From positions 1 to 23,012 of the IMG/VR virus record IMGVR_UViG_3300001798_000017: a DNA stretch of 23,012 nt; one strand, written 5' to 3'. Below the pieces are notes generated by a model that saw only the letters and a list, made by a program, of their open reading frames with translations, had not been told where the DNA came from and searched no databases. Origin of the DNA: a virus. This document shows, in pieces, positions 2,876 to 19,593 of this stretch (positions within the stretch are counted from its first letter, which is position 1; each line of letters begins with the position of its first letter). The position numbers and the translations under genes are program-made.

Positions 2876-2911
2876 GTTATTTAACGACTTCGAGTTATTT
2901 AACGACTTCGA
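2876..2911. repeat. 18-bp tandem duplication of the protease gene's last codons
   Basis: The unit GTTATTTAACGACTTCGA occurs twice back to back (2876-2893 and 2894-2911). On the minus strand it encodes the end of the protease/scaffold gene, LEVVK plus TAA, so the last five codons and the stop are followed at once by a second identical set. This is a recent slippage-type duplication that does not alter the protein. Confidence 0.9.
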
Positions 2912-3479
2912 GTTTTTTAGGCTTAGGATTTACCGTTGCCACATACGAATCGGTCTGAGCTTCGATCTCTTCAGCCAATTTGGCATCGACCGATTGCTCT
3001 CCGATCAACACTTTAAAGCCGGTTGAAGGCTCTAAAATCTCTTCGGTCAGTCCATGTTTCGGACGTGCTTCCTGGGTGGCCTTCAGATTGGCGACCCGCG
3101 AACCCGACTCCAGGGGCGATGCTTCATCATCTTTAGCGGCCTGCAAGTAAGTGGATAAAAAGCCATCCTTTTCCGCCGGATAAAGCCGGCCGGCCGTAAT
3201 TTCCGCGGAAACGAATTTTTCAGCATCTTTCTGAAGCTGCTCGCGTTTTTCCTGCTCGCGATCGGCTTTCATTTTTTCCAGTTCGATCTCCGCTGCACTT
3301 TTGGCAGTCGATTGAGCCTGGTGATCACCCGAACCAGAAGAACTGGCATTCGATGATTCGTCAGCCGGCTTTTCAACCTTAGTTTTCTTTTCTTCAGCTT
3401 CAGTTTCAGTTTCCGGTTTTTCTTCAACGCGGAAACCGAGTTTCGCGCTCATTTCTTTAAATGTGTCTTTCCAACTCAT
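2895..3479 (-). CDS. Nested scaffold protein from an internal start (Nu3-like)
   Basis: Inside the protease gene, in the same frame, ATG at 3479 (MSWKDTFKEMSAKLGF) is preceded by GAAGGAG about 8 bases upstream, as good a ribosome site as those of the flanking genes. It falls exactly at the junction between peptidase and charged region. The product would be 194 residues of acidic coiled coil: a free scaffold made in addition to the fusion, as lambda Nu3 is made from within gene C. The coding frame is certain; separate translation is an inference from the ribosome site and domain boundary. Confidence 0.65.
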   Translation of the reverse strand: MSWKDTFKEMSAKLGFRVEEKPETETEAEEKKTKVEKPADESSNASSSGSGDHQAQSTAKSAAEIELEKMKADREQEKREQLQKDAEKFVSAEITAGRLYPAEKDGFLSTYLQAAKDDEASPLESGSRVANLKATQEARPKHGLTEEILEPSTGFKVLIGEQSVDAKLAEEIEAQTDSYVATVNPKPKKLEVVK

Positions 3480-4385
3480 TTCTATTTCTCCTTCGTTTTC
3501 CGCGCCGAACGACGCTTTATTTTTGCCTTTGCGGGCAAGTTCCTTGATGACGGTTTCGAGACTGCCCACCCGGTCAGCCATTCCCGCCTTGACAGCATCA
3601 CTGCCGCATAAAATTCCGCCCTGGTTAAAATCAGCAATCACATCGCGGTTAGTTTTCTTCCCGCGATTCCGGCGAACCGCTGAAATAAAGACATCTTCCA
3701 TCGCGTCAAGTTCAGCCTGGAATTCCTTCAATCCTTCCTCGGTATTGAGGTCCAGCCGTTTTTTCGGGGCATTGCTGGAGGTGACCACTTTTTTATTAAA
3801 ACCAAGTTTTTTATAAGCTTCGGTGTCATCGATCCACATTGAGACGACCCCGATGGAGCCTAAAAATGCCGATTTATCACAAACCACTTCATCGCAGGCC
3901 GAAGCGATCCAATACGCACCCGAACAACCCAAACCGGAAACATAAGCCGACATGGGTTTTTTGCCCCGGGCATTGTAAATATGCTGCGAAAGTTCGTTGA
4001 TGCCGAAGGCTTCCCCGCCGGGCGAATCGATATTGAAAACGATTGATGAAACATTCGGATTGTCGAGCGTGGTTTGAAAATCTTTGAGCAAAGTTTCGGT
4101 CGAGGTCCCGCCCGAACAGATCTCCGCAAAAAATCCCATTCTTTTAGCGATCCGACCATAAACGTCAATAATGGCCACCCCGTCGCGGATCTCCACATAA
4201 CGGGTATTCATCAGCCTTTCGCCGCGTTTGGTCGTCATCGCTTCCGGAAGGGGTTTGCTTTCAGCCTCAGCCGCAATTTCTTCGAGCGTGTCGAGTTGGC
4301 GAAAAGCGACCATCATCATCACGTCGAATTCGTGCTGGCGCATCGCCCAGACCGAAGATGATAAAAAATCTAAAACTTTGCTCAT
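2895..4385 (-). CDS. S49 (SppA/ClpP-like) prohead protease fused to scaffold, lambda gpC-like
   Basis: 496 residues in two parts. Residues about 60-300 are an S49 serine peptidase: strand VAIIDVYGRIAK, motif FNIDSPGGEAFG (about 117-128), nucleophile Ser155 in GLGCSGAYWIASACD, then GSIGVVS and a candidate general-base Lys208/209 in SNAPKKRLD. Residues about 303-496 are highly charged (Glu/Lys/Asp/Ser) and coiled-coil forming, as expected of a scaffolding region. In this family the protease cleaves scaffold and other head proteins during prohead maturation. The start overlaps the portal stop by the ATGA arrangement (4382-4385), so the two are translationally coupled. A nested scaffold start lies at 3479. 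Confidence 0.88.
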   Translation of the reverse strand: MSKVLDFLSSSVWAMRQHEFDVMMMVAFRQLDTLEEIAAEAESKPLPEAMTTKRGERLMNTRYVEIRDGVAIIDVYGRIAKRMGFFAEICSGGTSTETLLKDFQTTLDNPNVSSIVFNIDSPGGEAFGINELSQHIYNARGKKPMSAYVSGLGCSGAYWIASACDEVVCDKSAFLGSIGVVSMWIDDTEAYKKLGFNKKVVTSSNAPKKRLDLNTEEGLKEFQAELDAMEDVFISAVRRNRGKKTNRDVIADFNQGGILCGSDAVKAGMADRVGSLETVIKELARKGKNKASFGAENEGEIEMSWKDTFKEMSAKLGFRVEEKPETETEAEEKKTKVEKPADESSNASSSGSGDHQAQSTAKSAAEIELEKMKADREQEKREQLQKDAEKFVSAEITAGRLYPAEKDGFLSTYLQAAKDDEASPLESGSRVANLKATQEARPKHGLTEEILEPSTGFKVLIGEQSVDAKLAEEIEAQTDSYVATVNPKPKKLEVVK

Positions 4386-5743
4386 AACTGTTCGTCTTCC
4401 TCCCCAGCTTCAGCCGGCCGATTTTCCGGTTTTTTGTCAGCTGACTTTTCCGCTTTTTCGCGAGGGTCCACGCCGAACTGGGCATCGAGCTGGCGGAAAT
4501 GTTCCTCGGCAAAGGTGTAACCGGCTGAAGCTGCCGCCTGGACATCAGTCGCCCAATCGTTGGCTTCGGTATCGCCGAGAAAACAATCCGGAGTTAAATG
4601 AGCTTTTTCTTCGCCGAAATTAACGATCGTCAAAAGGCGGAAAAGGTCTTTTTTGACGGTTGAGGAAATTGCCCGGCGAAAATTCTGTTTGCGGATATCG
4701 GAAACGTCCTTGGCAGATTCGCGAGCCGCCCGGGCATCTTTATCCGCTTCACCGGTGGTCAGGGCATCGCCGACAATAACTTTGCGGATCTGGGAGTTTT
4801 GATATTTAAGGGCAGTGGTAAATTGCTGACCGGTCCCCTGGACCTCGAGCTGCTGGATGGTCGTCCCGTTCGGAGCGGTAACTACCGAATTGTTGGCAAA
4901 ACCTTCGAGGGCGTTCATTAAGGCTTTTTCCGGGGTAATAGTTTTCGGCCGGCCGTTTTCCAGCACCGTGTTTCCACTGGAATCCTTGACCGGCATTTCA
5001 CCTTTGGCAGGACCGGTTATTCCGACTTTTTTCGGGATCGCCGAAGTGCGGCGCCATTCCTTCCATTGTTTGCGGGTGTCCTGTTTGTCACACCAGTCTT
5101 CAAAAGCGGCATCGATCTCCTCGATGCCGCGGGGATCGTTGTCGCAAAGCTCAAAATTAAGAACAATAAAATGATCCCGGCGGATGACCTTTTTCCCGTC
5201 AACCGTGACTATCCCCTCGCTTGGCTGAAAAAGCTGATTGACCGGAACGATTCCCAAAACGTTTAAAAATTTATCGCAGAAAAAAGCAACGGATGAATTC
5301 GGCTTCGGATTGATCCGGTCGAGTACAAGCTGGTCTTCATCCGGACGAAGAACGATCTCAGCCACTTTCACACCGTCTATAAAAGCTTCCTTGAACATTT
5401 CGCGCAAAACCGTCTCCAGTGGGCGCTGCGGATCGGAGGTGGCGTTATCGATAAAAGCGGCAATTTCTCCGGCTCCTTCGAATTCCGGATCATCTTCATT
5501 AGTGACCGAGGGAACGACCGTCACGCTTTCGCTGAAAATGGAATCGGCCAGCATCGAAAGCGATGATTTGACCTCGGAATCACGGCGGAGCCTTTGCCGG
5601 GCTTCAGGAGTTAAAAGCGGGTTGTAAGGATTAAATTGATCGAGATAAAGGGTATCGGCGGACAACCAGGAATTTCCGCCGACGACATATTCGCCCTGGA
5701 GTTCCTCATCCGATTGTTTTTTAGCGGTTGTTGCTCTTGGCAT
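4382..5743 (-). CDS. Portal protein, Mu gp29/DUF935-like
   Basis: 453 residues, normal for a portal. It would form the dodecameric ring at the DNA-packaging vertex. Visible features: an N-terminal arm, a helical stem-like region (EARQRLRRDSEVKSSLSMLADSI, in pieces), the segment LREMFKEAFIDGVKVAEIVL where DUF935 portals have their conserved DG..EI motif, FIVLNFE, and a helical TTGEADKDARAARESAKDV segment. The C-terminal 30 residues are charged and probably disordered. It sits between terminase and protease and overlaps the protease start by 4 bases. The ATG lacks a clear Shine-Dalgarno sequence and lies about 20 bases after the structured leader at 5760-5864. Portal identity is strong from context; the subfamily is less certain. 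Confidence 0.82.
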   Translation of the reverse strand: MPRATTAKKQSDEELQGEYVVGGNSWLSADTLYLDQFNPYNPLLTPEARQRLRRDSEVKSSLSMLADSIFSESVTVVPSVTNEDDPEFEGAGEIAAFIDNATSDPQRPLETVLREMFKEAFIDGVKVAEIVLRPDEDQLVLDRINPKPNSSVAFFCDKFLNVLGIVPVNQLFQPSEGIVTVDGKKVIRRDHFIVLNFELCDNDPRGIEEIDAAFEDWCDKQDTRKQWKEWRRTSAIPKKVGITGPAKGEMPVKDSSGNTVLENGRPKTITPEKALMNALEGFANNSVVTAPNGTTIQQLEVQGTGQQFTTALKYQNSQIRKVIVGDALTTGEADKDARAARESAKDVSDIRKQNFRRAISSTVKKDLFRLLTIVNFGEEKAHLTPDCFLGDTEANDWATDVQAAASAGYTFAEEHFRQLDAQFGVDPREKAEKSADKKPENRPAEAGEEDEQL

Positions 5744-5759
5744 TTTCGCGGATAAAATG

Positions 5760-5864
5760 GAAAACGCCTCGTGATCCTGATCTCAGAATTCACAAGGCGT
5801 TGTTGATCTTGCTTTTCGACACCGACTCCGCGGCATCACAACATTGTTTTCACTCTAAAAATAA
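5760..5864 (-). promoter_or_regulatory. 105-bp structured leader element, copy 1 (before portal)
   Basis: Nearly identical to 11529-11633 (three substitutions, at 5812, 5829 and 5856, in 105 bp). Read as minus-strand RNA it has hairpin H2 (arms 5831-5837 and 5818-5824, loop 5825-5830) followed by H1 (arms AACGCCTTGTG at 5791-5801 and CACGAGGCGTT at 5763-5773). Both stems contain G-U pairs in minus-strand RNA that would be A-C mismatches on the plus strand, so the functional RNA is minus-sense. All three substitutions fall outside the stems. Its upstream end carries a TATTTT -10 box. It ends 17 bases before the portal ATG. H1 is followed only by TTTTCC here. No named RNA family is recognised. 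Confidence 0.75.
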
Positions 5865-5886
5865 TTTATATAACCCTGCTTGTCAA
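5858..5886 (-). promoter_or_regulatory. Sigma70-type promoter for the portal/head operon
   Basis: On the minus strand TTGACA (5881-5886) is followed after exactly 17 bases by TATTTT (5858-5863). Transcription would begin near 5851, so the RNA starts almost at the first base of the folded leader. The -35 box lies outside the repeated element and the -10 box within it. The promoter lies between the terminase stop (5900) and the portal start (5743), so head genes can be transcribed separately from terminase. Confidence 0.6.
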
Positions 5887-5899
5887 TAAGATTCATACT

Positions 5900-7318
5900 T
5901 TACCCCGGAACCCCGGTTTCATAACTCCCCGCCGGAGGGATCGCGTAACTCAAACGGTACCTGGTCGAATCACCACTATGATCCTCTGACTTGAAATCAA
6001 CATCATCACGGTCTTTATCCGATCTGGGCAAAACCGGAACGGTCCTGATCCAGTGAGTGCAGTTGTTAAAAATAAAAAGGCCAGGCTCCTCCATCGGAAA
6101 TTTATGAGCGGCTTTTAAGAATCTGCGTAATCTTTGCCAACCCTGTTTTCTGCTTCCCGGTTTTTTATCGGCTTTGATCCAACCAACTCCGCGCTCGAGC
6201 ATTTCGTCGGCGATGGAGATAGATATTATTGGATCAGAATCCCAAATCTGAGTGTCGGCGGCCCCGTCATTTATAGTTAAATTTAGGAGAATTCCCTGAT
6301 GTTCGCGCTCAACGATCCCGTCAGCGATTTCGTGAGCTAAAAGCTTACAGCCTTCGTTGGGTTTCCCGTTCCAGCCATACCATTCCTGAATGGCGAACAT
6401 AGTCCCGCGGGGATAAGTAATTCCGTTCGGTGCGATAGTTCCGTCGCTTTCCGCCCACCAGTTGACCGAAAATGGTGCGGAGCTGCCCCAATCAAATGTC
6501 CGGTCCACATACCAGGAATATGGAATCTGGAAAGGAACAATAATATGAATTTCCCGCCGGAAAAGATCGTCAAGCATTCCGCCCGCGACAATATCCCAAT
6601 CTCCGTAACGCCATGCCCGCAATAATTCTTTATCCCCACCAACTGAGGCTTCGACTCTTTTCCAATAATTGGGATCATTTTTGGTCAATAAAGGGTTGTC
6701 ATCCAAGGTTGCCGGGATATAAATGCGCGTCACATTTTGTTCCGGATCAAAAAAAGGTCGCATCGGAGGAGAAGGATCGACATAACGAGCCTTGACCCAG
6801 TTGTGACCCACCCCGCCCGGATTGGCCGTCGCCCTGAAAAAACAAGGAACACCGGCTCCCGAACGCAAACAGGCGCGGAGTTTGTCAACCGGTTTCGGGC
6901 TTGGCCAGTTCGTCAGCTCCTCAAAACAAATCCAGGTGTATTCATGTCCTTGATATTTGGTCGCGTCTTCGTCACGTTCGAGAATCCGCATTTTGAGCAT
7001 GGCGCCGTTCGGGAAAAACCATGTTCTTTTTTGGGTTCGGTAAACCGCTCCAACCAGAGGAAAGATCTTTTGTGCGAATTCCTGGACTTGCTCAAGCTCA
7101 TCGTAGGTTTTCCGAAAGAAAACCCCTTTAGCGTTCGCGCCGTAAAGGTCCTGGTGGGAAAGCCAATCACCTAACATTCCGTAAGTCTTGCCGCCGCCCC
7201 TCGCCCCGCCGAACAGCAGATCTTCAAAAGGACAGGCGATCATCGCTTCCTGGGGAGTCCCGGCCTGGGTCTCAAAAGCAACTATTTCTCTGATTGGGGT
7301 TGATACTGTTCGGACCAT
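5900..7318 (-). CDS. terL: Terminase large subunit
   Basis: 472 residues, normal length. It is the ATP-driven DNA-packaging motor with a headful or site-specific nuclease. ATPase domain: Walker A GGARGGGKT (37-45), Walker B YTWICFEEL with acidic Glu133/134, and coupling motif TANPGG (about 164-169). C-terminal RNase H-like nuclease: Asp276 in RTFDWGSS, Asp351/355 in NDGAADTQIWD, and a late acidic set DDVDF ... EDHSGDSTRYRL (about 438-455). The gene overlaps the small-subunit gene by 37 bases and has no strong ribosome site, so coupled translation is likely. It is followed by the promoter and leader at 5760-5886. Confidence 0.95.
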   Translation of the reverse strand: MVRTVSTPIREIVAFETQAGTPQEAMIACPFEDLLFGGARGGGKTYGMLGDWLSHQDLYGANAKGVFFRKTYDELEQVQEFAQKIFPLVGAVYRTQKRTWFFPNGAMLKMRILERDEDATKYQGHEYTWICFEELTNWPSPKPVDKLRACLRSGAGVPCFFRATANPGGVGHNWVKARYVDPSPPMRPFFDPEQNVTRIYIPATLDDNPLLTKNDPNYWKRVEASVGGDKELLRAWRYGDWDIVAGGMLDDLFRREIHIIVPFQIPYSWYVDRTFDWGSSAPFSVNWWAESDGTIAPNGITYPRGTMFAIQEWYGWNGKPNEGCKLLAHEIADGIVEREHQGILLNLTINDGAADTQIWDSDPIISISIADEMLERGVGWIKADKKPGSRKQGWQRLRRFLKAAHKFPMEEPGLFIFNNCTHWIRTVPVLPRSDKDRDDVDFKSEDHSGDSTRYRLSYAIPPAGSYETGVPG

Positions 7319-7920
7319 TCTTCAGGGGATTGTTTAGGTGGAACCCGGACGACGCTTGAAGTTAAATTCACGTCAGACTCAATCTTTTCGGTGAACAATT
7401 TGTGAATTTTTCCAATATCTCTTTGTGCTTCGTGTGCCGAATACATCTCAAATTCGACCTCTTCATAAATAATTTCGGTTTGTTTAGTAAGGGGTTCAAT
7501 TTCATCATCGGAGAGTAAATTATTGATTTCTTCGTTGGGCTCGGTTTTACTTTGTTTGATGGTTCTCTTGGTTTTGATTTTTTTAAGCAAATGAGTTTTA
7601 TTGTTCTCTCGGGCCACCTTCAGGCTGAATTTCCCTTCTTCATCAAGAACATCATCTACATCACCTCTGGCAATCTCTGCAAGTCTCGCTATTGTTTCAT
7701 TTACACCCATCGCGTAAACTGCCAGCTTGTCTTCGATATACTGCGAAACCTTAGCATTTCTTAGCAATCTTGAAGCTGTGACGGCGAGCGTATTATTATC
7801 GCCCTCATATTGAGCTAAACGAGCTGCCTTGGTGCCATTAAAAAGTGCATCCCCGACATAAAAATCAGCAAAGAGCTTTTGTTTTCCTTTGAGAATTGTT
7901 TTCTGTTTTTCTTCACTCAT
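7282..7920 (-). CDS. terS: Terminase small subunit (Terminase_2 type)
   Basis: 212 residues. The N-terminus matches the Terminase_2 pattern: LKGKQKLFADFYVGDALFNG, then TKAARLAQYE ... AVTASRLLRNAKVSQYI, an HTH-like unit followed by oligomerisation helices (NETIARLAEIARGDVDDVLDE). The protein recognises the packaging site and loads the large subunit. Residues about 115-160 are charged and low-complexity, and the C-terminal tail (VRVPPKQSPEEWSEQYQP) probably contacts the large subunit. The 3' end overlaps terL by 37 bases. A 12-bp palindrome, GCCTAATTAGGC, lies at 7956-7967 upstream; it could be a binding site but nothing proves it. Confidence 0.88.
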   Translation of the reverse strand: MSEEKQKTILKGKQKLFADFYVGDALFNGTKAARLAQYEGDNNTLAVTASRLLRNAKVSQYIEDKLAVYAMGVNETIARLAEIARGDVDDVLDEEGKFSLKVARENNKTHLLKKIKTKRTIKQSKTEPNEEINNLLSDDEIEPLTKQTEIIYEEVEFEMYSAHEAQRDIGKIHKLFTEKIESDVNLTSSVVRVPPKQSPEEWSEQYQPQSEK

Positions 7921-7970
7921 CTTTACAGTGCCGGTTTTTCTCCCTCAAATGAGGAGCCTAATTAGGCATT

Positions 7971-8255
7971 TTAAGCCGGGTCCCATTTTCCATCCCGGAC
8001 ATAACCGTGAAAACCGCAATCAGTGCATTGAAAAGACGGGGATAAAGTCGGCTTTTCAAAGTCACCGTTGAATTCCCAAACCGGACGTTTGTCATCATCC
8101 TTAAACATCGAACGATCAAACCAAAAAGAAGCCCAGCATTCACCGGATTCATTCTTTGGGTTGGGATGGGTAATGATCCCGCCGATCCGTTTGCCTTCAG
8201 CTTGGGTCCAACCGATAAAAACCCCGTTTCCCAAATCTAAATGTTTTCTTGGCAT
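7971..8255 (-). CDS. DUF6527-like phage protein, divergent paralogue
   Basis: 94 residues. It shares the core PVWEFNGDFEKPTLSPSF with its upstream neighbour at 8267-8551 (PPWTFNGDLENPTVSPSI), so the two are paralogues from a tandem duplication. This copy has an N-terminal half of different sequence (LDLGNGVFIGWTQAEGKRIGG) and a shorter end with CTDCGFHGYVRDGKW. The Cys pair CTDC and His could bind a metal, but the full ligand set seen in its neighbour is reduced. Function is unknown. Plus and minus shadow frames across this region were discarded because they lack this conserved core. Confidence 0.72.
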   Translation of the reverse strand: MPRKHLDLGNGVFIGWTQAEGKRIGGIITHPNPKNESGECWASFWFDRSMFKDDDKRPVWEFNGDFEKPTLSPSFQCTDCGFHGYVRDGKWDPA

Positions 8256-8266
8256 AAATATTTCCT

Positions 8267-8551
8267 TTATCTATTCAAAACTTCTTTCATTGAAGTCCAA
8301 TCGGGTATTTCGACTGTTTGCCCTTTTAATTCATGACTGCAATCATCTAAAAACTGAATCATTCCGTCTTTGACAAAAGAATGACATCGGGGATGAGATT
8401 TAGAACCAAAGACCAAAATTGATGGCGAAACGGTTGGGTTTTCCAAATCACCGTTAAATGTCCAGGGAGGCGTCTGGATCGAATGAAGCGAACCGCAGCC
8501 CGGACAATCAAAAACCCAATAATCATCTTTAACCTTGTGAACTTTAGCCAT
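8267..8551 (-). CDS. DUF6527-like phage protein
   Basis: 94 residues with the hallmarks of the DUF6527 family as I recall it: CPGCGSLHSIQT, WTFNGDLENPTVSPSI, then RCHSFVKDGMIQFLDDCSHEL and GQTVEIPDW. The conserved Cys and His residues (CPGC, CHSF, CSH) suggest a zinc site. Family members are common in phages and have no firmly established function. It lies between the membrane-protein/lysis side and the terminase, in a place where small accessory genes are usual. The downstream paralogue begins 11 bases after its stop. Confidence 0.8.
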   Translation of the reverse strand: MAKVHKVKDDYWVFDCPGCGSLHSIQTPPWTFNGDLENPTVSPSILVFGSKSHPRCHSFVKDGMIQFLDDCSHELKGQTVEIPDWTSMKEVLNR

Positions 8552-8605
8552 AATTTTATCCCCGACAATTTCCGCAAAGCTTGTTTATATCCGCCTTTCA
8601 ATGGA

Positions 8606-8667
8606 GGACGCTTGTTTCGCTGAAGGTTCAAATTTGCATTGTGCACAAAATCCCTTCCCAAGCGTCC
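8606..8667. repeat. Separated 9-bp inverted repeat
   Basis: GGACGCTTG (8606-8614) and CAAGCGTCC (8659-8667) are perfect inverted copies 44 bases apart, in the 125-base gap between the membrane/coiled-coil gene and the DUF6527 gene. There is no T-tract, so it is not a normal terminator. It could fold in the leader of the DUF6527 pair or bind a protein. Confidence 0.45.
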
Positions 8668-8676
8668 GTAACTATT

Positions 8677-9204
8677 TCAAACAATCCCCGATTTTTGATC
8701 TCCCCCTGTTAAATTATGCTTGGCTATCTCGGCAATGGCCATTTTGAGGAATTTTTCTGATGTTTTTTGCGCTTTTATCAACTCCAGAAAATCTGCCCGA
8801 TGATCATGGCAATCATTCTCTAATGCACGTTCGATAACGGCGGACATTTCATTGATAGAATTATGATTGCCTTCCGAGTGGGACAGTATTTCCCGCACAT
8901 CTTTCAAGGTTCTCCGGTATTGGTGATTCGCTTCGTCTAATTGCAGAGCTTCCCTGGCAATCAACTGGCAGTTTTTTACCCAAAGCGCCATTTCGTTCTG
9001 AACTTCGATTAAAAGGGTCGTTTCAGAACGATGAATATCCGCTTGAGTCTTTTCGATTTCAACCGCGGTTTTTTGCCTGGTTTTCCGGTCAAAAAGCCAT
9101 TTCAAAAACGCGCCGAAAAACAAAAATCCGGCACTCATCAAAATTTTCAAATAAGTGTCCTGACTGAATAAATTTTCAACTTGAAATAAAAATCCTGGGA
9201 GCAT
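8677..9204 (-). CDS. Membrane-anchored coiled-coil protein, function unknown
   Basis: 175 residues. One hydrophobic segment (about 19-37, YLKILMSAGFLFFGAFLKW) is followed by a basic stop (DRKTRQK) and a long helical, mostly coiled-coil region rich in Glu, Gln and His to the C-terminus. A short N-terminus followed by a basic patch suggests the long domain stays in the cytoplasm. It is 3 bases downstream of another membrane protein and lies in the same run as the lysis genes, so a lysis-accessory or superinfection role is possible but unproven. GAGG lies 8 bases before the ATG. Confidence 0.68.
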   Translation of the reverse strand: MLPGFLFQVENLFSQDTYLKILMSAGFLFFGAFLKWLFDRKTRQKTAVEIEKTQADIHRSETTLLIEVQNEMALWVKNCQLIAREALQLDEANHQYRRTLKDVREILSHSEGNHNSINEMSAVIERALENDCHDHRADFLELIKAQKTSEKFLKMAIAEIAKHNLTGGDQKSGIV

Positions 9205-9207
9205 TTT

Positions 9208-9621
9208 TTACCTCAGACTGTTTAAGTTTTTCAATTTTTCCTGAGTGACTAAGATACTTCGCCATAAACCATCAATCCGCTCAGGTAATGACTTTTCCAT
9301 GCCTGGAAATTCCGGCCCGGATAAATTCAATTGTTCAACTCTTTTGCGGGTTCGACGAAACACTAAGAGCCACGAACCGCACCAAAAAAAGATTGCCGCG
9401 AACAAAGACAGATTAAACGTAAGTTTTAATATTAACCCTAAAAAAACTGTTCCGATAATAATTACGCAGTAAACCCCTAGCGCGTTGCGTAATCGGTATA
9501 AAAGCCTGGTTGATTGCAGCTTGAGGCGATCTGCCAGAAGGTTTATTTCAAATGAACATAAAAAAATAAACAATCCGAGTAAAAGTTTAAGACTGGTATC
9601 AATAATTGTGACTAATTCCAT
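9208..9621 (-). CDS. Multi-pass membrane protein, possible second holin or accessory
   Basis: 137 residues with three hydrophobic segments: about 10-27 (SLKLLLGLFIFLCSF), 49-66 (GVYCVIIIGTVFLGLIL) and 70-88 (LSLFAAIFFWCGSWLLVF), then a basic cluster RRTRKR and a soluble helical tail. Size and topology would fit a class I holin, but the small two-helix protein beside the endolysin is the better holin candidate. The next gene starts 3 bases after its stop. No family recognised. Confidence 0.65.
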   Translation of the reverse strand: MELVTIIDTSLKLLLGLFIFLCSFEINLLADRLKLQSTRLLYRLRNALGVYCVIIIGTVFLGLILKLTFNLSLFAAIFFWCGSWLLVFRRTRKRVEQLNLSGPEFPGMEKSLPERIDGLWRSILVTQEKLKNLNSLR

Positions 9622-9669
9622 AATGGATCACTCTTTTTGGGAGAATGTTTTAATTTAAATTAATGTTTT

Positions 9670-9695
9670 GCCGGAGCCCCCTTGAAGACCCCGGC
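9670..9695 (-). promoter_or_regulatory. GC-rich hairpin before the membrane-protein pair
   Basis: In minus-strand RNA, GCCGGGGTC can pair with GGCTCCGGC across nine positions including two G-U pairs that would be mismatches on the plus strand. It lies 49 bases upstream of the ATG at 9621. There is no following U-tract, so it looks like a leader hairpin or processing site more than a terminator. Confidence 0.4.
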
Positions 9696-9736
9696 TCTTT
9701 AAACAAAAAAAATGAAATTTCAGGCTCTTTAGAAAT

Positions 9737-10009
9737 TTATTCGAGTCTGACGATGACCGGTTCCGAACGGGTTTGTTTGGGTAAAAACGACTTTTTAAGC
9801 CCGTCTGATTTCCTTTTTATTTGATTATTGGAATAAACACTAAACTCCCGGACAGTTACCGGAAGCGGGTATGTAGCAGAATTGTTTGACACATTATCCG
9901 AAAGGATAATATCGTTTGGCGGGTTGGCTGCGGGATCTGCGATCGTCGAGAGAATTCCGACGATGAACGCAAAGACTAAAATTGTTAAATTATAAATTCG
10001 GAGCTTCAT
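9737..10009 (-). CDS. Small exported or membrane-anchored protein
   Basis: From ATG at 10009 the product is 90 residues: MKLRIYN, a hydrophobic stretch LTILVFAFIVGILS, then polar IADPAANPPND, the layout of a Sec signal or anchor. The mature part is Ser/Asn/Lys-rich with no cysteines. The chosen start has GGAAG 6 bases upstream; the longer frame from 10063 adds a basic, antisense-like N-terminus and is not preferred. It overlaps the end of the DUF1508-like gene by 20 bases. Near a lysis cassette, a spanin-like role is conceivable but no lipobox is present. Confidence 0.55.
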   Translation of the reverse strand: MKLRIYNLTILVFAFIVGILSTIADPAANPPNDIILSDNVSNNSATYPLPVTVREFSVYSNNQIKRKSDGLKKSFLPKQTRSEPVIVRLE

Positions 10010-10202
10010 CGTTTTCTTCCGCTTCTTCGGCCGGAACTTCAACCACCGGCGCGTCCCCCGCATTGTTTTTAATCAGGTCGATGGCCCGGAGCATATCGCC
10101 TCGATTTTTGTAGCCTTCCGAAGAAAAAAAAATCTCTCCGTTAGCCGCGACAAAACGAAAATACCAATTAGCTTTTCTACTCTTGAAAATTTCAAATCTC
10201 AT
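9990..10202 (-). CDS. DUF1508 (YegP-like) domain protein
   Basis: 70 residues from ATG at 10202, with AAAAAGG 5 bases upstream. The sequence MRFEIFKSRKANWYFRFVAA, then NGEIFFSSEGYKNRGDMLRA and IDLIKNNAGDAPVVEV, follows the DUF1508 pattern (FEIYK ... WRWRL.A.NGE.IA.SEGY....A...I..VK.NA.DA.V.D) from start to end. A short acidic tail follows. Domain members form small symmetric beta-alpha proteins; their function is not known. Its presence within a phage late operon is unusual. The longer upstream reading frame in the same phase is non-coding extension. Confidence 0.78.
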   Translation of the reverse strand: MRFEIFKSRKANWYFRFVAANGEIFFSSEGYKNRGDMLRAIDLIKNNAGDAPVVEVPAEEAEENDEAPNL

Positions 10203-10251
10203 ATTTTCCTTTTTGAGTTTTACCCAAAAACGTATACTTCCGATTTCGGTT

Positions 10252-10521
10252 TTAATTGAAAAAGGGTATTTTGAAACCGAAACTGCTGGCCGCAGATTTG
10301 ACGGCATCAACCGGGACTGCATATTTTTCAGGTTTAGCCGGATTGATATTGGTCCCTTCCCAATTAGCCGGGTAAACATCGGGCGGAAATAAAAGATTCA
10401 GGTAATTGCGGATCCTGATCAGCCATTTGGCGTATTTGGCGGCTGAAGCAGGTTTGACCAGGAAATTACCGATCATCGGTAAAATAAATTGCAGCAAAGT
10501 ATCTAAACTAAAAAAATTCAT
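10252..10521 (-). CDS. Small phage protein next to holin, function unknown
   Basis: 89 residues. The N-terminal third is amphipathic to hydrophobic (FSLDTLLQFILPMIGNFLV), followed by helical AAKYAKWLIRIRNYLNLLF and a C-terminal Pro/Ala/Lys region ending FGFKIPFFN. It has a strong AGAGGAG site 5 bases from the ATG and overlaps the holin stop by 4 bases (10518-10521). The tight coupling suggests a lysis-linked function such as an antiholin or membrane-associated partner. No family recognised. Confidence 0.6.
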   Translation of the reverse strand: MNFFSLDTLLQFILPMIGNFLVKPASAAKYAKWLIRIRNYLNLLFPPDVYPANWEGTNINPAKPEKYAVPVDAVKSAASSFGFKIPFFN

Positions 10522-10829
10522 TTTTTCTCCTCTAAATTTTCGACGGCGTTTTCAATCTCGCCGGGTTGAATGTTTTGTAAATTCGTACTTTCGGACGGCG
10601 CTGAAACGATCACATCGCCCGATTCCGTGTTGGCCGATTGGCTGGCGGTTTGCTGACGCTGCATACCCAAGGCGGTGAATAACGCGGATAAAATTAAACC
10701 TGTCCATTCTTTGTAAGCGCTGTCGTTGGTATAAAAATAAAACCCGACAAATGTCAGCGTTAGAAAAAGCAAAGGTATCCATGCCGGGAAATTCCGAAGG
10801 AAGTATAAAAATGGTGAGTCGTGGTTCAT
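10518..10829 (-). CDS. Holin candidate
   Basis: 103 residues with two hydrophobic segments (about 17-33, WIPLLFLTLTFVGFYFY, and about 42-56, WTGLILSALFTALGM) separated by a short polar loop, then a polar acidic C-terminal tail. That is class II/III holin-like topology. It overlaps the endolysin stop by ATGA (10826-10829), the commonest holin-endolysin arrangement, although here endolysin comes first. It would form pores in the inner membrane to release endolysin at the set time. The tail (SGDVIVSAPSESTNLQ) is longer than usual. Assignment is from topology and context. Confidence 0.65.
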   Translation of the reverse strand: MNHDSPFLYFLRNFPAWIPLLFLTLTFVGFYFYTNDSAYKEWTGLILSALFTALGMQRQQTASQSANTESGDVIVSAPSESTNLQNIQPGEIENAVENLEEKK

Positions 10830-11512
10830 ATCCCTAAAGCTTTTTTGGTGCGATCTCCAACCATTCCGTCAGCAATTAAATTCCGTGACTTCTGAAACCG
10901 TTGGACTGCCGATTCCGTCAAGATTCCAAAATCAGAATCAATCTGGTGATGTTTCATAAATCCTTTTTCAACTAACTTTGTTTGGATCAATTTGACCTGT
11001 TCACCTTTCGCACCTCTCCCGATAACGCTATTTGTAGCGACTGTCGGCGGTGTGACTGGCTTTCCGGTTACGGTTGGTGTTGCGCCTAGATTCCATTCTT
11101 TCTCACTATTGAAAAGCGACTCGTCGGCTACCACCGAAATGTGTAAATGATGTTTATGCGGATTTTTTCCGCTATATTTGCGCCAAATCCAGGGTTGTTG
11201 TTTGCTGGAGATAATCTGACCGTTCCATATAATATATTTGATCCGGGGGTCTTTATCTTTAACCAAAACTTTGGCTAACCAGTGGCAATCTATCCCGACG
11301 CCATCGGCCGGGTTATTGTCAAAGGTAAAATCGCGGGCGGTCACGACTCCGACATTATTTTTATCCTTGACGTGGGGTAAATGGTCGCTGGTTCCCGCCT
11401 TCTGATGCGCAACGTCTCCTATACCGCCATCCGAAACTTTTGACCGATCCGGAAACATTTCATTTAACTGTTTCCGCAGAACTTCCAAACTTTTTGCCAC
11501 ATACCAACTCAT
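10826..11512 (-). CDS. Endolysin: M15-type peptidase with C-terminal peptidoglycan-binding domain
   Basis: 228 residues from ATG at 11512. N-terminal domain: zinc-peptidase M15 pattern with His44 in TSDHLPH, Asp61 in VVTARDFTFD and His124 in NPHKHHLHISVV, the expected three zinc ligands. It cuts peptide cross-links in peptidoglycan. After a Pro/Thr linker (about 138-162), residues 165-228 are a PG_binding_1 domain (GEQVKLIQTKLVEKG ... SAVQRFQKSRNLIADGMVG). A TTG start at 11524 is possible but it lies in the U-tract after the leader hairpin; the ATG with GGTG before it is preferred. It is the first gene after structured leader copy 2. Confidence 0.88.
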   Translation of the reverse strand: MSWYVAKSLEVLRKQLNEMFPDRSKVSDGGIGDVAHQKAGTSDHLPHVKDKNNVGVVTARDFTFDNNPADGVGIDCHWLAKVLVKDKDPRIKYIIWNGQIISSKQQPWIWRKYSGKNPHKHHLHISVVADESLFNSEKEWNLGATPTVTGKPVTPPTVATNSVIGRGAKGEQVKLIQTKLVEKGFMKHHQIDSDFGILTESAVQRFQKSRNLIADGMVGDRTKKALGI

Positions 11513-11528
11513 AATTTTCACCAAAAAA

Positions 11529-11633
11529 GAAAACGCCTCGTGATCCTGATCTCAGAATTCACAAGGCGTTGTTGATCTTGTTTTTCGACACCGACTCGGC
11601 GGCATCACAACATTGTTTTCACTCCAAAAATAA
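11529..11633 (-). promoter_or_regulatory. 105-bp structured leader element, copy 2 (before endolysin)
   Basis: Matches 5760-5864 at 102 of 105 positions in the same orientation. H2 arms are 11600-11606 and 11587-11593; H1 arms are 11560-11570 and 11532-11542. Here H1 is followed by TTTTCTTTTTT on the minus strand, a much stronger U-tract than in copy 1, so this copy looks like an intrinsic terminator or attenuator placed directly before the endolysin start. The TATTTT box (11627-11632) is conserved; at 17 bases upstream the sequence is TTGCAG (11650-11655), a weak -35. The element therefore probably brings its own transcription start and a folded leader that could gate lysis expression. Confidence 0.72.
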
Positions 11634-11658
11634 ACTTTTTATTTTAAAACTGCAATCT

Positions 11659-11862
11659 TTATTTAGGTTTGCACTTTTTCCATTTTACGAGCTGACCACA
11701 GCCCTTGCAGGGAAAGCCCATATAAAAAGGCTTGCCCTTAACTAATTCTTTGCCAAAAAAAAGATCTATACCATTGGTTTGGGCAACAATAGTTAAGCAT
11801 TTTTTCCCTGAAGGAAGTAAATTTTTACAGCGAAAATTAACCAGGGGTATTGTATTTTCCAT
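11659..11862 (-). CDS. Small zinc-ribbon protein (Com-like)
   Basis: 67 residues with Cys12 and Cys22 in NFRCKNLLPSGKKC, and a CKGC pair at 52-55 in FPCKGCGQLVKWKKC, a four-cysteine zinc-ribbon layout reminiscent of the phage Mu Com protein, though the spacing of the first pair is wider. Com-type proteins bind phage mRNA to control translation, so a nucleic-acid-binding role is reasonable but unproven. It lacks a clear Shine-Dalgarno site. It is transcribed away from the divergent nuclease gene and its stop is 26 bases before leader copy 2. Confidence 0.55.
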   Translation of the reverse strand: MENTIPLVNFRCKNLLPSGKKCLTIVAQTNGIDLFFGKELVKGKPFYMGFPCKGCGQLVKWKKCKPK

Positions 11863-13035: not shown

Positions 13036-13939
13036 GAACCTGTTTGCAATTTGTTCATTAAGTAATTCTCCGTAATATCAAGCGGATTGCACAAATTCTA
13101 ATCTTAGTTTCGCTCGTTACTAAAAGACCTTCACAATTCTTCCACAATACTCGACATTGATTGATCCACGCATTTGTTCGTTCGACTATCCACCGCTTGA
13201 AAATTACCACAAATCCTTGTTTTGCTGGATTTTCTTGTTTTGATGTTGCCTTTTGCTCCGGCGTGATTTTGGCTGATATTTCAATCTTTATTTTATCTCT
13301 TAATCGCTTTTCTATTTTCTCTATCTCGTTTTCCAAGAACTCTTTATGATAACCATTATCCAACAAAATCGTGATAATGTGTCCTTCGGGCAAGTCAAGA
13401 AAATACTCTTTGTTAGCTCTGATTATTTCGAGCATTCCATCATCATCACTTATATTTGCCGCCGTGCATTTAACAAAATACGGATTCCCCAACACATCCA
13501 CCAACAAGTGTCTTTTGATTCCATTCGTGCATTTGTAGTGACAATATCCTTTAGTTTCAATGTTTGCCGTATCCGTGTTTTTGGCACACATCGAATCTCC
13601 TAAGAATAAACTTGGATACTCGCTTTTTTTTGCTTTTTGCGCTCTATTTTCGCTAAAGTTGTCAAAACTTCTTCCCAAGTTCCATCAAGTCGCCATCGCC
13701 GAAATTGGGAATAGACCGTTTGCCAGTTTGGAAAGCTGTCTGGTAAATCACGCCATTGACAACCGTTTTTCAGTTGGTAAAGAATAGCATTGACCATCAA
13801 ATGCTTGGTAATAAAGCCTTTTTTCGTTTTACTCTGGGGTAACAATTCTGCTAAAACCTCAAATTGTGCTAAGGTTAAATCTGTTGTATATGCCATTATC
13901 AAAGTAAAAACGATTATGGTTTTAATTGCAAACAGGTTC
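13036..13939 (-). mobile_element. IS5-family insertion sequence, 904 bp
   Basis: Bounded by perfect 16-bp inverted repeats GAACCTGTTTGCAATT (13036-13051) and its complement (13924-13939), flanked by TATA on both sides. It contains one transposase gene split in two overlapping frames. Size, end sequence and frameshifted DDE transposase fit the IS427-like part of the IS5 family. Both ends and both frames look intact, so the insertion is probably recent and the element may still be active. Confidence 0.92.
13058..13896 (-). CDS. IS5-family transposase, made by -1 frameshift
   Basis: The first frame (ATG 13896 to the stop at 13600, starting MAYTTDLTLAQFEVLAELLP) has the DUF4096-type N-terminal domain (YQLKNGCQWRDLPDSFPNWQTV). 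The second frame (13058-13678) carries the DDE catalytic domain: first Asp in LGDSMCAKN, second in ILLDNGYHKEF, Glu in WIVERTNAWIN. The frames overlap by 79 bases; within the overlap eight A residues on the minus strand (complement of 13624-13631) give a classic A-AAA-AAA slip site that moves ribosomes to the -1 frame. The fused product would be about 280 residues, the usual length. The N-terminal frame alone may act as an inhibitor. Confidence 0.9.
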
Positions 13940-14885: not shown

Positions 14886-15449
14886 ATGATGAACAACCAA
14901 CCAAAACAACTAACCAAATTAGAAATCGGTGATGAAATCGGTTTCGTGACCTTAGCCCAAAATGTTGACGATAAAGACCGCGTGGTTTTCTTTCCAGTGG
15001 TTGAAGTAACCACCCGCGACGGAGAACGTGCTTACCGCTATCTTTATCCCGACGGCCAAGTTTCGGCTTCAGCTATCAAAGAATCGAATCTTGATAACTA
15101 CACCATCAAAATCCACCGGTGCGAGGTCATCGCACCACAAGTCGAAAATGTTCCAAATTTAGCAATTTGCCTAAATGACCGCAAAGACGAATTCAGAGGT
15201 GCCTTAAAACGCGGGATGGATAATGACCTTCAAGTTTCTGACGGCTGGGATAAAGATTCTTTTTTCGTGACGAATCGCACTAATAAAAGCGAATATCGGG
15301 TAGAGTTTGAAGCGGTTGACGGGCGGGTTTATGCAGATTGTGAGTGTGCTGACGCCCTTTATCGGAAAAGAATTTGCAAACATATAGCTGCGGTTTTGGA
15401 AGATAATTTTTTTGGAGTCGTCGAATCAATGGGAGTTGAATTGGTCTAA
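14886..15449 (+). CDS. SWIM zinc-finger protein
   Basis: 187 residues (a second ATG follows at once at 14889). The N-terminal half is an alpha/beta region of no recognised family with EIGDEIGFVTLAQNVDD and RDGERAYRYLYPDG. The C-terminal part is a SWIM zinc finger: C152-E-C154 then C164-K-H166 in YADCECADALYRKRICKHIA, the CxC...CxH pattern. SWIM domains bind DNA or proteins and occur with recombination and mobile-element proteins. A GGAG site lies about 10 bases before the start. First gene of the operator-controlled plus-strand operon; a small hairpin (15455-15472) follows the stop. Confidence 0.78.
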   Translation: MMNNQPKQLTKLEIGDEIGFVTLAQNVDDKDRVVFFPVVEVTTRDGERAYRYLYPDGQVSASAIKESNLDNYTIKIHRCEVIAPQVENVPNLAICLNDRKDEFRGALKRGMDNDLQVSDGWDKDSFFVTNRTNKSEYRVEFEAVDGRVYADCECADALYRKRICKHIAAVLEDNFFGVVESMGVELV

Positions 15450-16467: not shown

Positions 16468-16514
16468 TCGGGATGGCGAGATTTGAACTCACGACCTTTC
16501 GCACCCCAAGCGAA
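16468..16514 (-). other. 3' half of a tRNA-Pro(GGG): att core
   Basis: On the minus strand: anticodon arm TTCGC-TTGGGGT-GCGAA with anticodon GGG and G37, variable AGGTC, T arm GTGAG-TTCAAAT-CTCGC, then CATCCCG as the 3' acceptor strand and discriminator A; no CCA. Upstream a D-arm-like TAGTTAAGGATAGCTA can be drawn, but the 5' acceptor strand CGGGATG is absent, so this is not a working tRNA. Phages integrating into tRNA genes carry this portion to restore the gene, so the host site is inferred to be tRNA-Pro(GGG). Confidence 0.75.
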
Positions 16515-16657
16515 CTAGCTATCCTTAACTACCTCTAATCACAGCCAACTACATCAATTTTTATGGTGGGAATTAGACTTGATTCGCCCTCTTTTTATGT
16601 CACCATCCCACCATTTTCACACCATCTTATTGATTGTTAATTTTTAATGGTTAATTG

Positions 16658-17797
16658 TTAATTGTTTTCCGAACTGACAAAGATCGTATCCTGCTTGACG
16701 TTGTTCGTCAAAACCTCCAAAACGGTTCTTAAATTATCATCGAGAACGTGAGAATAGATTTGGGTCGTTTTGACGTTTGAATGTCCAAGCGAAGTCTGGA
16801 TCATTTTTTCGGTGGCGCCGATTGAGAGCAGCTCGGTGGCAAAAGTATGGCGGAGGTCGTGAAATCGGAATTCTTTGATTCCCGCATCATCCAACGCCGA
16901 ATGCCAGGATTTTGAAAAGGTCTTGAGCCTGGCGCCGGTCCGCGGATGGGTAAATAAAAAATCTTCTTTGTCTTTTGCCAGGGAGGTCAGGATCAGCCAG
17001 GTCCGGACCGCAACCGGCACTGTTCTCTGTTTTTGCTGTTTCGATCTGATTAACGTGACCGCCTGGTTTTCATAATTCAAATTCGTTTTTCTTAAACTTA
17101 AAATCTGCCCGCGCCGCCAGCCGGTAAAAAGCGCAATCAAAACAATCGCCAGTAATTGTTTTTTATCCTGTAAAACTTCCAAAAGCCGTAATTTTTCAAC
17201 TTGAGTTAAATACCGTTCGCGGGGTTCCGGTTCGGGTAGTTTTTTGACGGATTGACAGGGATTTTCCTGAATTTTCCGGTGTGTTTTAGCTAATGACATA
17301 ATTGCCGAAAGCGTGGTCAGCTCACGGTTAACCGTGGAAGGCGAAACGGTCGGACTTTGACATTCGGATAAGGTATGCAGCTCGTGAGCGCATCTCTGGC
17401 AATGAACTTTTTCAGATAATCTTTTTTTCTTATATGATTCGATGTTAGCGGGAGTGATCGTTTTTAAATAACCGTCGCGGAAAAACTTTTTCAGGTTATT
17501 TGTTTCGGTAACTTTTTGTTTATAGCTCGGATTATGAAGATAAGCATTGGGAAGGTAAACATTATCAACGTAATCGGTAAAATGAGTTTTATCTTTAAGA
17601 AATTCTAATTCCCCGTGATGAATTTGGGCGATCAGAAGATCTTCAGCGGTTTGGGCATCATCTTTTGTTTTAGCGGTTTTAAGTGATTTGTGATAACGAA
17701 CGCCGTCAATGGCGCCTTCAGCAACCCAGGTGCCTTTATTGTAGTTAGGGTCTTTTCTGGTGACACGGTTGCCTTTGTAGCGTTTATAAACAGCCAT
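16658..17797 (-). CDS. int: Tyrosine-recombinase integrase with a Cys-rich insertion
   Basis: 379 residues. The N-terminal arm-binding region (AVYKRYKGN ... GTWVAEGAIDGVRYHKS) is followed by a core-binding domain (about 70-185) and the catalytic domain with Arg228 in LFTGWRRGQIL, Lys253 in RSKQQKQRTVPV, His313-x-x-Arg316 in FHDLRHTFA, His339 in SLGHSNV and nucleophile Tyr348 in TTQIYSHV. All catalytic residues are present. It catalyses site-specific recombination between attP and the host tRNA gene. The core-binding domain contains an extra segment at 131-148 with Cys133, Cys136, Cys146 and nearby His, possibly a zinc knuckle. It is the last gene of the replication/regulation run, ending about 145 bases before the att core. 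Confidence 0.95.
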   Translation of the reverse strand: MAVYKRYKGNRVTRKDPNYNKGTWVAEGAIDGVRYHKSLKTAKTKDDAQTAEDLLIAQIHHGELEFLKDKTHFTDYVDNVYLPNAYLHNPSYKQKVTETNNLKKFFRDGYLKTITPANIESYKKKRLSEKVHCQRCAHELHTLSECQSPTVSPSTVNRELTTLSAIMSLAKTHRKIQENPCQSVKKLPEPEPRERYLTQVEKLRLLEVLQDKKQLLAIVLIALFTGWRRGQILSLRKTNLNYENQAVTLIRSKQQKQRTVPVAVRTWLILTSLAKDKEDFLFTHPRTGARLKTFSKSWHSALDDAGIKEFRFHDLRHTFATELLSIGATEKMIQTSLGHSNVKTTQIYSHVLDDNLRTVLEVLTNNVKQDTIFVSSENN

Positions 17798-17833: not shown

Positions 17834-18166
17834 TTATTGAATATTATCATTCTCAATGTCAATCTTTTGCTTTTTCGCGGCGAATTTTCGCTCCTTTTCG
17901 CGCCCGGACCATTCGCGGATCTCCGAATAAAAGAATCGCGGATCGGAGCCGACATAATCCACCGGCAAGGGATTATCATCAGGTTCGCGGTTCATCCAAT
18001 TGAGAATGGATTGCTTGTTGACCTGCCAGAAATCGGCGAGCTGCGCGAGCGTCATTACTTCCCGGGGCTTTGGGCGGGAAAATTCCAGACGGTCTAAAAC
18101 TCTGCCGGCAACTTCCTCAAGTTTTTGCTCCAATTCGTCTTGCTGAATGATAACTACTCCATTCAT
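17834..18166 (-). CDS. Excisionase-like HTH protein
   Basis: 110 residues from ATG at 18166 (MNGVVIIQQDELEQ). An N-terminal coiled-coil-like segment (ELEQKLEEVAGRVLDRLEF) precedes a helix-turn-helix of HTH_17/Xis type: MTLAQLADFWQVNKQSILNW, followed by a wing (DYVGSDPRFFYSEIREW) and a basic C-terminus. Its position one gene before integrase, and the fold, fit an excision directionality factor, though a regulator is possible. The start overlaps the preceding stop as ATGA (18163-18166), so a longer upstream extension is not used. It ends 36 bases before the integrase start. Confidence 0.72.
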   Translation of the reverse strand: MNGVVIIQQDELEQKLEEVAGRVLDRLEFSRPKPREVMTLAQLADFWQVNKQSILNWMNREPDDNPLPVDYVGSDPRFFYSEIREWSGREKERKFAAKKQKIDIENDNIQ

Positions 18167-18384
18167 AATTTTAATCCCCGTTTTTGAAATTCGTCTCTCA
18201 GTTTTTTCTTTGCCCGCTTTTCGATGTACCAAATATCCTGTTTATTGCATCCGCAGACAAAGGCTATTTCTTCAAGCATCAGTTCGACTCCTCTGGGCGT
18301 GACGGCTGAAAGGATTGTTAGCCCCGCATCTAACCCGCCGTCCTCCAAAATTATTTCATCACTAAACTTTTTAATTCCCCGCAT
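18163..18384 (-). CDS. Small protein with a sigma70 region 4-like HTH
   Basis: 73 residues from ATG at 18384. The C-terminal half, MLEEIAFVCGCNKQDIWYIE then KRAKKKLRDEF, matches sigma region 4.2 (LEEIG..LGV.R.RVRQIE.KALRKLR) position by position, with W in place of the usual R/V. There is no region 2, so it cannot be a full sigma factor. Such proteins are common in phage replication/regulation runs and may activate late promoters or act as DNA-binding regulators; target unknown. It starts 1 base after the previous gene's stop and overlaps the next by ATGA. Confidence 0.7.
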   Translation of the reverse strand: MRGIKKFSDEIILEDGGLDAGLTILSAVTPRGVELMLEEIAFVCGCNKQDIWYIEKRAKKKLRDEFQKRGLKL

Positions 18385-18385
18385 C

Positions 18386-18649
18386 TTATTTCTTCTCCCT
18401 GTTCCTGAAATCCTTACTAAACGGGCAGTTGGAATAGTGACTGATATAAAGATTCTTATTTTCCCGCCGGGCAAATTCAATTTCCGTTTTAGTAGCAAAA
18501 CGATAAATACCTTTATTTCGATCAATGACCAGGTTTCCTTTTTCGTGCGGCTTGACCTCGATCGGATTTGGACGCGGATTCGGATTCCTGGGTGTCGGCA
18601 GAGCGGTCATCCAGATTATTTCGGCTTTGCATTTGCAGATATAAGGCAT
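18386..18649 (-). CDS. Small Cys-containing phage protein
   Basis: 87 residues. MPYICKCKAEIIWMTALPTP and the C-terminal YISHYSNCPFSKDFRNREKK recall small phage zinc-binding proteins that begin with CxxCG...IIW and end in a HF..CP..F.K motif; here the N-terminal pair is CKC and the central residues are RNPNPRPNPIEVKPHEKGN. A metal site is plausible. There is no Shine-Dalgarno; the start is 2 bases after the previous stop, so translation is coupled. Function unknown. Confidence 0.62.
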   Translation of the reverse strand: MPYICKCKAEIIWMTALPTPRNPNPRPNPIEVKPHEKGNLVIDRNKGIYRFATKTEIEFARRENKNLYISHYSNCPFSKDFRNREKK

Positions 18650-19393: not shown

Positions 19394-19593
19394 TATTTCA
19401 CTCCTAAAAACTTTTTCCGCTGCCTGAGCTGATCCCTGAGAGCGTCAACCAATTCCGATAATTCCGACAAATCCATTCTTCCGAGGTCTAGCAATTCCCT
19501 TTTGACCTTCAAAAAGACCAATTCGTTTTGGATCTGACGAATTTCCGTGATCAATTCGCTGCGGTTTGTTTGTTCAATTCCTGTATCAGCCAT
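19393..19593 (-). CDS. Small coiled-coil protein
   Basis: 66 residues from ATG at 19593 (MADTGIEQTNRSEL), chosen over TTG at 19599 because GGAGGAGG is 7 bases from the ATG. The rest is one long helix with heptad pattern (ITEIRQIQNELVFLKVKREL, then ELSELVDALRDQLRQRKKFL). Its first 43 bases overlap the end of the replication gene. It may be a replication accessory protein, for example a helicase-loader partner, but this is only from position. Confidence 0.62.
   Translation of the reverse strand: MADTGIEQTNRSELITEIRQIQNELVFLKVKRELLDLGRMDLSELSELVDALRDQLRQRKKFLGVK

Follow-up and report, generated by a model that had tools for sequence, protein, structure and literature searches.

IMG/VR virus record IMGVR_UViG_3300001798_000017 carries on its minus strand two nearly identical structured leaders, one ahead of the portal gene and the other ahead of the endolysin gene, and units built on the same plan stand at these two places in two diverged phages. 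Throughout this text, the window denotes the whole stretch of DNA that was analyzed (23,012 nucleotides (nt), positions 1 to 23,012 of the record). The six units share one anatomy, conserved positions, a fixed 17-nt spacing between promoter-like hexamers, covarying stems and a mutually exclusive pairing. Each of them is probably, in a judgment held with moderate confidence, an attenuated late promoter, consisting of a sigma70-like promoter and a leader of ~90 nt that contains an upstream hairpin (H2) and a terminator/antiterminator attenuator formed by a second hairpin (H1) and the linker before it.

Two Minus-Strand Leaders in the Window

The window repeat comprises two copies of 111 nt (5754-5864 and 11523-11633), which lie 5769 base pairs (bp) apart and are identical at 106/111 positions; over the 105-nt stretch considered in a preliminary description of this DNA, the count of 102/105 given there holds. 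With no further copy in the 3.7 Mb assembly, the total is two. Each copy bears a TATTTT box at its upstream edge (5858-5863 and 11627-11632, minus strand) and two hairpins, namely H1 with 12 bp (5763-5801 and 11532-11570) and H2 with 7 bp (5818-5837 and 11587-11606). In the endolysin copy, H2 has the stem GAUGCCG/CGGUGUC and the loop CCGAGU, with a pair probability of 0.95 in the full leader, and the portal copy has the same stem with the loop CGGAGU. As previously noted, both H1 and H2 contain G-U pairs that are possible for a minus-strand RNA only, and the three substitutions between the copies spare the stems. We locate one each in the 5' leader, in the loop of H2 and in the linker. The minus strand of the two copies folds at -35.5 and -34.9 kcal/mol (z -3.4 and -2.8), while the plus strand folds more weakly (-27.9 and -27.0 kcal/mol). 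H1 is followed by a T tract, TTTTCTTTTTT ahead of the endolysin (GTT TTCTTTTTTGG, 11522-11531) and TTTTCCATTTT ahead of the portal (5752-5762), as had been reported.

The promoter had been placed inside the repeat, which is true of its -10 hexamer but not of its -35 hexamer. In the portal copy, the latter is a consensus TTGACA (5881-5886) that together with TATTTT at a spacing of 17 gives a 10/12 promoter match; in the endolysin copy it is a weak TTGCAG (11650-11655, 3/6 to consensus), 17 nt before TATTTT. The genes that follow are those for the portal protein (4382-5743, minus strand) and an endolysin with the peptidoglycan-binding domain PF01471 (10826-11511, minus strand, start ATG at 11511). 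These findings support the view that a promoter-like site and, behind it, a structured leader of minus sense precede both genes. The copies had also been said to stand immediately before the two late units; they do precede portal and endolysin, but within a minus-strand late array rather than at its two ends.

The Same Two Places in Diverged Phages

A terminase search of GTDB genomes returned a single close relative. This phage, L105, is a prophage within a metagenome-assembled genome of the Pyrinomonadaceae, and its terminase is 81% and its portal 53% identical to those of the window. Upstream of its portal, at the position seen in the window, lies a hairpin (AACGCCTCGAAGAC...GTTTTCGAGGCGTT) followed by TTTT, and a second unit of the same plan precedes an endolysin-like gene. 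A pattern scan with the H1 stem identified G622, an IMG/VR record of 45,485 bp, in which (locus L134) one unit precedes an endolysin homologous to that of the window and a second lies directly upstream of a homologous portal gene (E 5e-163, 47% identical). In each of the three phages, one unit stands before the portal and one before the endolysin, with DNA similarity almost gone. This placement has been kept even though the terminase of G622 differs from those of the window and L105, and the N-terminal part of the L105 endolysin is unlike the other two.

Homologs with covarying stems, which the preliminary description had proposed as a test, are present in L105 and G622. Considering that three diverged phages hold the same two places, the unit is less "portable", as it had been called, than positionally conserved, although the repeated promoter-leader itself stands. 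The window repeat is a pair of minus-strand leaders and not insertion sequence debris. A remnant of an insertion element or of a miniature inverted-repeat transposable element was considered and rejected, since only two copies exist and they occupy the same two positions in three phages; no target duplication was seen by eye in the flanks of the repeat.

Shared Anatomy of the Six Units

All six units present the same order of parts: TTG-N3-N17-TA-N3-T, ~20 nt, H2, linker, H1, T tract and start codon. The spacer between the promoter-like hexamers is exactly 17 nt in every case, with TTGACA/TATTTT (portal) and TTGCAG/TATTTT (endolysin) in the window, TTGATT/TACATT and TTGAAA/TACTTT in L105, and TTGCAT/TACATT and TTGAAA/TAAAGT in G622. 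Dinucleotide shuffles of each region carry this motif in 4-6% of cases, the product over the six regions being 2e-8 for a motif that was picked after inspection of the data. Stem and linker lengths vary within narrow limits (H2 4-7 bp, linker 11-16 nt, H1 12-14 bp). The distance from the -10 hexamer to H2 is 17-21 nt in five of the six units, and that from H1 to the start codon 17-20 nt, likewise in five (full range 17-32 nt). Leaders measure about 87-95 nt in five units and 117 nt in the sixth.

H1 keeps 12-14 paired positions between elements, with 6-10 of 12 pairs changed on both sides in most comparisons; from phage to phage, most positions of the stem differ. As a signature on its own it was abandoned, because unrelated phages carry similar terminators. 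A leader peptide was also rejected, since neither G622 nor the portal leader of L105 has the ATG of the window leader. A T tract broken ahead of the portal, as described from the window, is not a general feature: the G622 portal unit has CTTTTTATTTTT. At L159:5900-6000, ahead of a further endolysin relative, TTGCAC-N17-TATTTT is followed by a GC-rich hairpin and a T tract but not by H2, an arrangement that is possibly a simpler cousin of the element.

A Candidate Antiterminator

When the leaders were folded in their nascent state, with the 3' arm of H1 not yet made, those of L105 and G622 formed a further hairpin, in which the linker pairs with the 5' arm of H1; the window leaders are able to form this pairing, though not as the minimum-energy fold. 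The pairing, not seen in the preliminary description, is possible in all six units and excludes H1, which suggests that H1 and the linker form a terminator/antiterminator pair. Its linker strand, A, lies in the window at 11577-11581 (endolysin copy) and 5808-5812 (portal copy), and its H1 strand, B, at 11561-11565 and 5792-5796 (all minus strand); B would pair either with A, giving the antiterminator, or with the 3' arm of H1, giving the terminator. The A/B pairs are ACAAG/CUUGU (endolysin) and GCAAG/CUUGU (portal) in the window, ACACG/CGUGU and UCGAG/CUCGA in L105, and CGAG/CUCG and CUAUCG/CGGUAG in G622. The loop between them is of the type A(U/G)UUAACGC, AUCAACAACGC in the window.

Over five distinct elements, 24/25 pairs form at a fixed register, with two-sided change at 4/5 positions. 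Permuted partners do as well in 2/120 cases, which is the floor of this test because two of the B strands are identical. Attenuators are marked by a leader segment that can pair with the 5' arm of the terminator at the expense of the terminator itself; a pairing of this kind, short and co-varying, is recognizable by sequence in all six units.

H2 as a Hairpin Specific to Each Phage

H2 behaves differently from H1. Between the two units of one phage its identity is 14/18 in L105 and 17/20 in G622, and it differs from phage to phage. In L105, the loop UAAAAUCU is identical in both units, and the stems GCUC/GAGC and GCCC/GGGC differ by a compensatory change from U-A to C-G. H1 and the -35/-10 spacer, on the other hand, differ between the two units in L105 and G622, where both units are old; for the spacer, the comparison between the two copies of one phage gives 15/28, 13/28 and 16/24 (one figure per phage). 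A recognition site for a phage-specific factor would be expected to be kept inside each genome and to be exchanged from one genome to the next, and we infer that H2 is such a recognition hairpin. MAFFT alignments misplace H2, and pair counts were taken from stems placed by hand in scripts.

A candidate for the factor is encoded nearby. Directly upstream of the endolysin element in the window lies the gene for a 67-amino-acid C4 zinc-ribbon protein (11659-11862, minus strand), and each of the three phages encodes a small C4 zinc-ribbon protein with the same cysteine pattern ahead of its endolysin unit. Clear homology links L105 and G622 only (E about 1e-8); the window protein is 27-33% identical to its relatives and has the same cysteines, so that its homology is suggestive only. 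An AlphaFold2 model was too poor for a fold search (predicted local distance difference test score 60). No N-like protein was found. The zinc-ribbon protein is offered as a candidate trans-acting factor, a lead rather than a result.

Proposed Mechanism and Competing Explanations

The account that follows, of an active promoter, of termination and of a signal that would throw the switch at a given time, is inferred. The sigma70-like promoter would start the minus-strand transcript of a late unit, and by default most transcripts would end at H1 as RNAs of ~90 nt, with the H1 terminator competing against an antiterminator in which the linker holds the 5' arm of H1. Late in infection, a factor would act on the leader, in the simplest case a phage protein or host complex recognizing H2, in the manner of nut or put RNAs, or one that stabilizes the antiterminator. 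Read-through would then express the endolysin-to-terminase genes from one copy and the portal-capsid genes from the other, and the same switch at both places would turn on the two late units together. A narrower version, in which a lineage-specific two-copy RNA switch synchronizes the lysis/packaging and capsid operons via a zinc-ribbon RNA-binding protein that recognizes and co-evolves with H2, appears doubtful.

Several observations weigh against an attenuated late promoter. Promoter matches are weak in four of the six units, and the T tracts before the portals of the window and L105 are broken, so that H1 may terminate weakly there. In the portal copy of the window, the minimum-energy fold is not H2 plus H1, with H2 at ~0.8 in the ensemble. 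The predicted antiterminator has only 4-6 bp, and its stability is far below that of H1; compared with shuffled linkers, each pairing singly is not significant (P 0.05-0.37), while Fisher's method over five elements gives 0.008. Strand A is similar to the 3' arm of H1, so that duplication of this arm could account for some of the covariation of strand A. Moreover, the six elements compared come from three phages only.

Among other explanations, one is the lambda pR'-tR' type, in which a Q-like protein would bind promoter DNA and carry polymerase through H1, with H2 and the linker being incidental or pause elements. In Stx (Shiga toxin) phages, Q binds qut, which lies partly between -35 and -10, and polymerase then passes the terminator (PMC6266700). 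The order of promoter, short leader, terminator and lysis genes is alike, and in all six units one recognizes by sequence a promoter whose short leader, ahead of late genes, contains a terminator. However, conserved protein-binding DNA between -35 and -10 was not found; what the two copies of a phage have in common is the transcribed H2 and not the promoter spacer, which weakens this explanation, and the window repeat begins only at the -10 hexamer. No Q-like protein was recognized in the genes scanned, and the zinc-ribbon protein encoded at the corresponding place was not assigned to a family. We regard a Q-type system as unlikely. It is distinctly improbable that the unit is instead a two-copy small RNA gene whose ~90-nt product acts in trans, the downstream genes being expressed by read-through or from elsewhere. 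Each unit does constitute a complete small transcription unit, and IsrK of Gifsy-1 offers a precedent as a prophage RNA that occurs both as a terminated small RNA and as a read-through mRNA (PMC4825925). Yet three phages keep it strictly 17-32 nt ahead of the same two genes, which favors a role in cis, and in L105 and G622 much of the RNA, namely H1 and the linker, is not the same in both copies of a phage.

The leader might also control translation: H2 and H1 would then govern how ribosomes reach the portal and endolysin starts, which are without good Shine-Dalgarno sites, and a zinc-finger protein like Com could be the mediator. Com of phage Mu is a zinc-finger protein that binds RNA and activates translation (PMC6483171). 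As had been pointed out for the window, the portal ATG lacks a Shine-Dalgarno sequence, which is true of both relatives as well, and a small zinc-ribbon protein is encoded beside the element. Nevertheless, the start codon lies outside H1 in an unstructured AT-rich stretch, the Shine-Dalgarno site of the window endolysin is fair (-7.4 kcal/mol), the T tract behind H1 favors transcription, and the zinc-ribbon proteins gave no match to the Com family in Pfam, PHROGs or NCBIfam; we accordingly give translational control little credence. Finally, H1 could represent ordinary host-style terminators of upstream units followed by constitutive promoters, with the window repeat as a recent duplication lacking a regulatory role. 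Hairpins of the type AACGCCTCG...CGAGGCGTTTT are indeed common terminator sequences in unrelated phages, but here the hairpin lies downstream of a promoter-like site and upstream of a gene in six of six units, H2 and the spacing are conserved, and when the fetched loci (3.8 Mb counting both strands, mostly from other phages) were scanned for a promoter followed by H1, a T tract and a gene, no match was found beyond these units. This last explanation is very improbable.

Relation to Known Systems

An attenuated late promoter of this kind resembles a combination of three known systems, lambda pR'-tR'/Q, nut and put RNAs, and BglG-type attenuators, and the unit is filed as a member of none. With lambda pR'-tR'/Q and Stx pR' it shares a promoter, a short terminated leader and lysis/morphogenesis genes, and late genes would need read-through. 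It differs in having two units per genome, one of them before the portal, in its conserved transcribed hairpin and predicted antiterminator, and in a promoter spacer that is not conserved between copies; no Q was recognized among the genes scanned. The unit is not assigned to the Q type because the DNA recognition typical of Q was looked for and not found.

The put sites of HK022 are leaders with stem-loops, and nut and put RNAs sit in early operons and act on distant terminators. H2 is likewise a phage-specific hairpin common to both sites of a phage, as in nut/boxB of lambda N and in put, where the hairpin acts in the nascent RNA, but here it lies directly before the terminator it would control. 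Leaders with ribonucleic antiterminators (RAT), which respond to BglG or SacY, are terminator/antiterminator attenuators, as are riboswitch expression platforms. In these attenuators, as predicted here, the 5' arm of the intrinsic terminator is overlapped by an antiterminator hairpin with a conserved loop; unlike them, the present units concern phage late genes, occur in two copies and have an extra upstream hairpin, with no known ligand or RAT-binding protein. Promoter early stem-loop (PeSL) cassettes of T4-type phages are early, mobile and numerous in a genome. They too are repeated promoter and stem-loop units, whereas here there are two per genome at fixed late positions.

In agreement with the preliminary description, no named RNA family was recognized: Rfam 15 scans of the whole window and of three of the six elements singly gave chance-level matches, far below gathering scores. 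A similarity search with the window repeat in phages and viral contigs gave no match, and a search of 70 family genomes yielded chance matches only, besides the two copies. The same was true of the H2 pattern in viral contigs and of the promoter-leader pattern, apart from G622. Among 162 genomes of the class of the Pyrinomonadaceae genome G460, a pattern search found two real elements, both in G460, and three others without hairpin and T tract; a portal profile run over 396 genomes of its phylum revealed no new phage. No such unit was described in the literature searched, most subscription journals falling outside it.

To our knowledge, hardly any study has addressed the timing of late genes in phages that infect uncultured soil bacteria, for instance Acidobacteriota. 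The six elements, two from each of three phages, provide a concrete, testable candidate for a late switch, one that would join late-promoter antitermination with a terminator/antiterminator RNA, two principles usually seen apart, and in which one phage-specific hairpin would tie two operons together. The unit also offers a small part for regulation, and its pattern is specific enough to be used in searches for more such phages.

Genomic Context and Additional Observations

The window is phage DNA with a minus-strand late array that runs from the zinc-ribbon gene through the endolysin, several small genes, the terminases (small, 7282-7920; large, 5900-7318) and the portal to an S49 protease (2895-4385), followed by further genes of the late array, probably head genes. 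One copy of the repeat separates the zinc-ribbon gene from the endolysin, and the other separates terminase from portal.

A partial tRNA (16476-16532, minus strand), which we take to be a tRNA-Pro, lies beside an integrase gene (16658-17797, minus strand) and is a likely attachment site. Its match to G460 is 96% over 55 nt, and that to the bin which contains the window is 89% over 45 nt. As the match to G460 is the better one and the 16S of the bin is, as we presume from its appearance, Bacteroidota-like, the contig may have been mis-binned and the true host of the window phage may be an acidobacterium.

Elsewhere in the window, an IS4/5-family transposase gene in two overlapping reading frames (13058-13902, minus strand) is inserted in the phage region, and another pair of direct repeats (22106-22166 and 22684-22744) measures 61 nt with 87% identity. 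The open reading frame (ORF) 18163-18525 (minus strand) encodes a possible transcription regulator, whose C-terminal part resembles the helix-turn-helix of sigma-factor region 4 (weak NCBIfam match, E 0.04). ORF 19551-20591 (minus strand) encodes an HTH_36 replication-like protein and contains, at 20200-20281, three repeats with a 21-nt palindromic unit (AGTTCTAATAATTAGAAC type), which recall an iteron origin within an initiator gene; the lambda origin, with its iterons, lies inside the initiator gene O. A SWIM zinc-finger protein is encoded at 14886-15449 (plus strand), and a homolog of it occurs in the early region of the L105 prophage.

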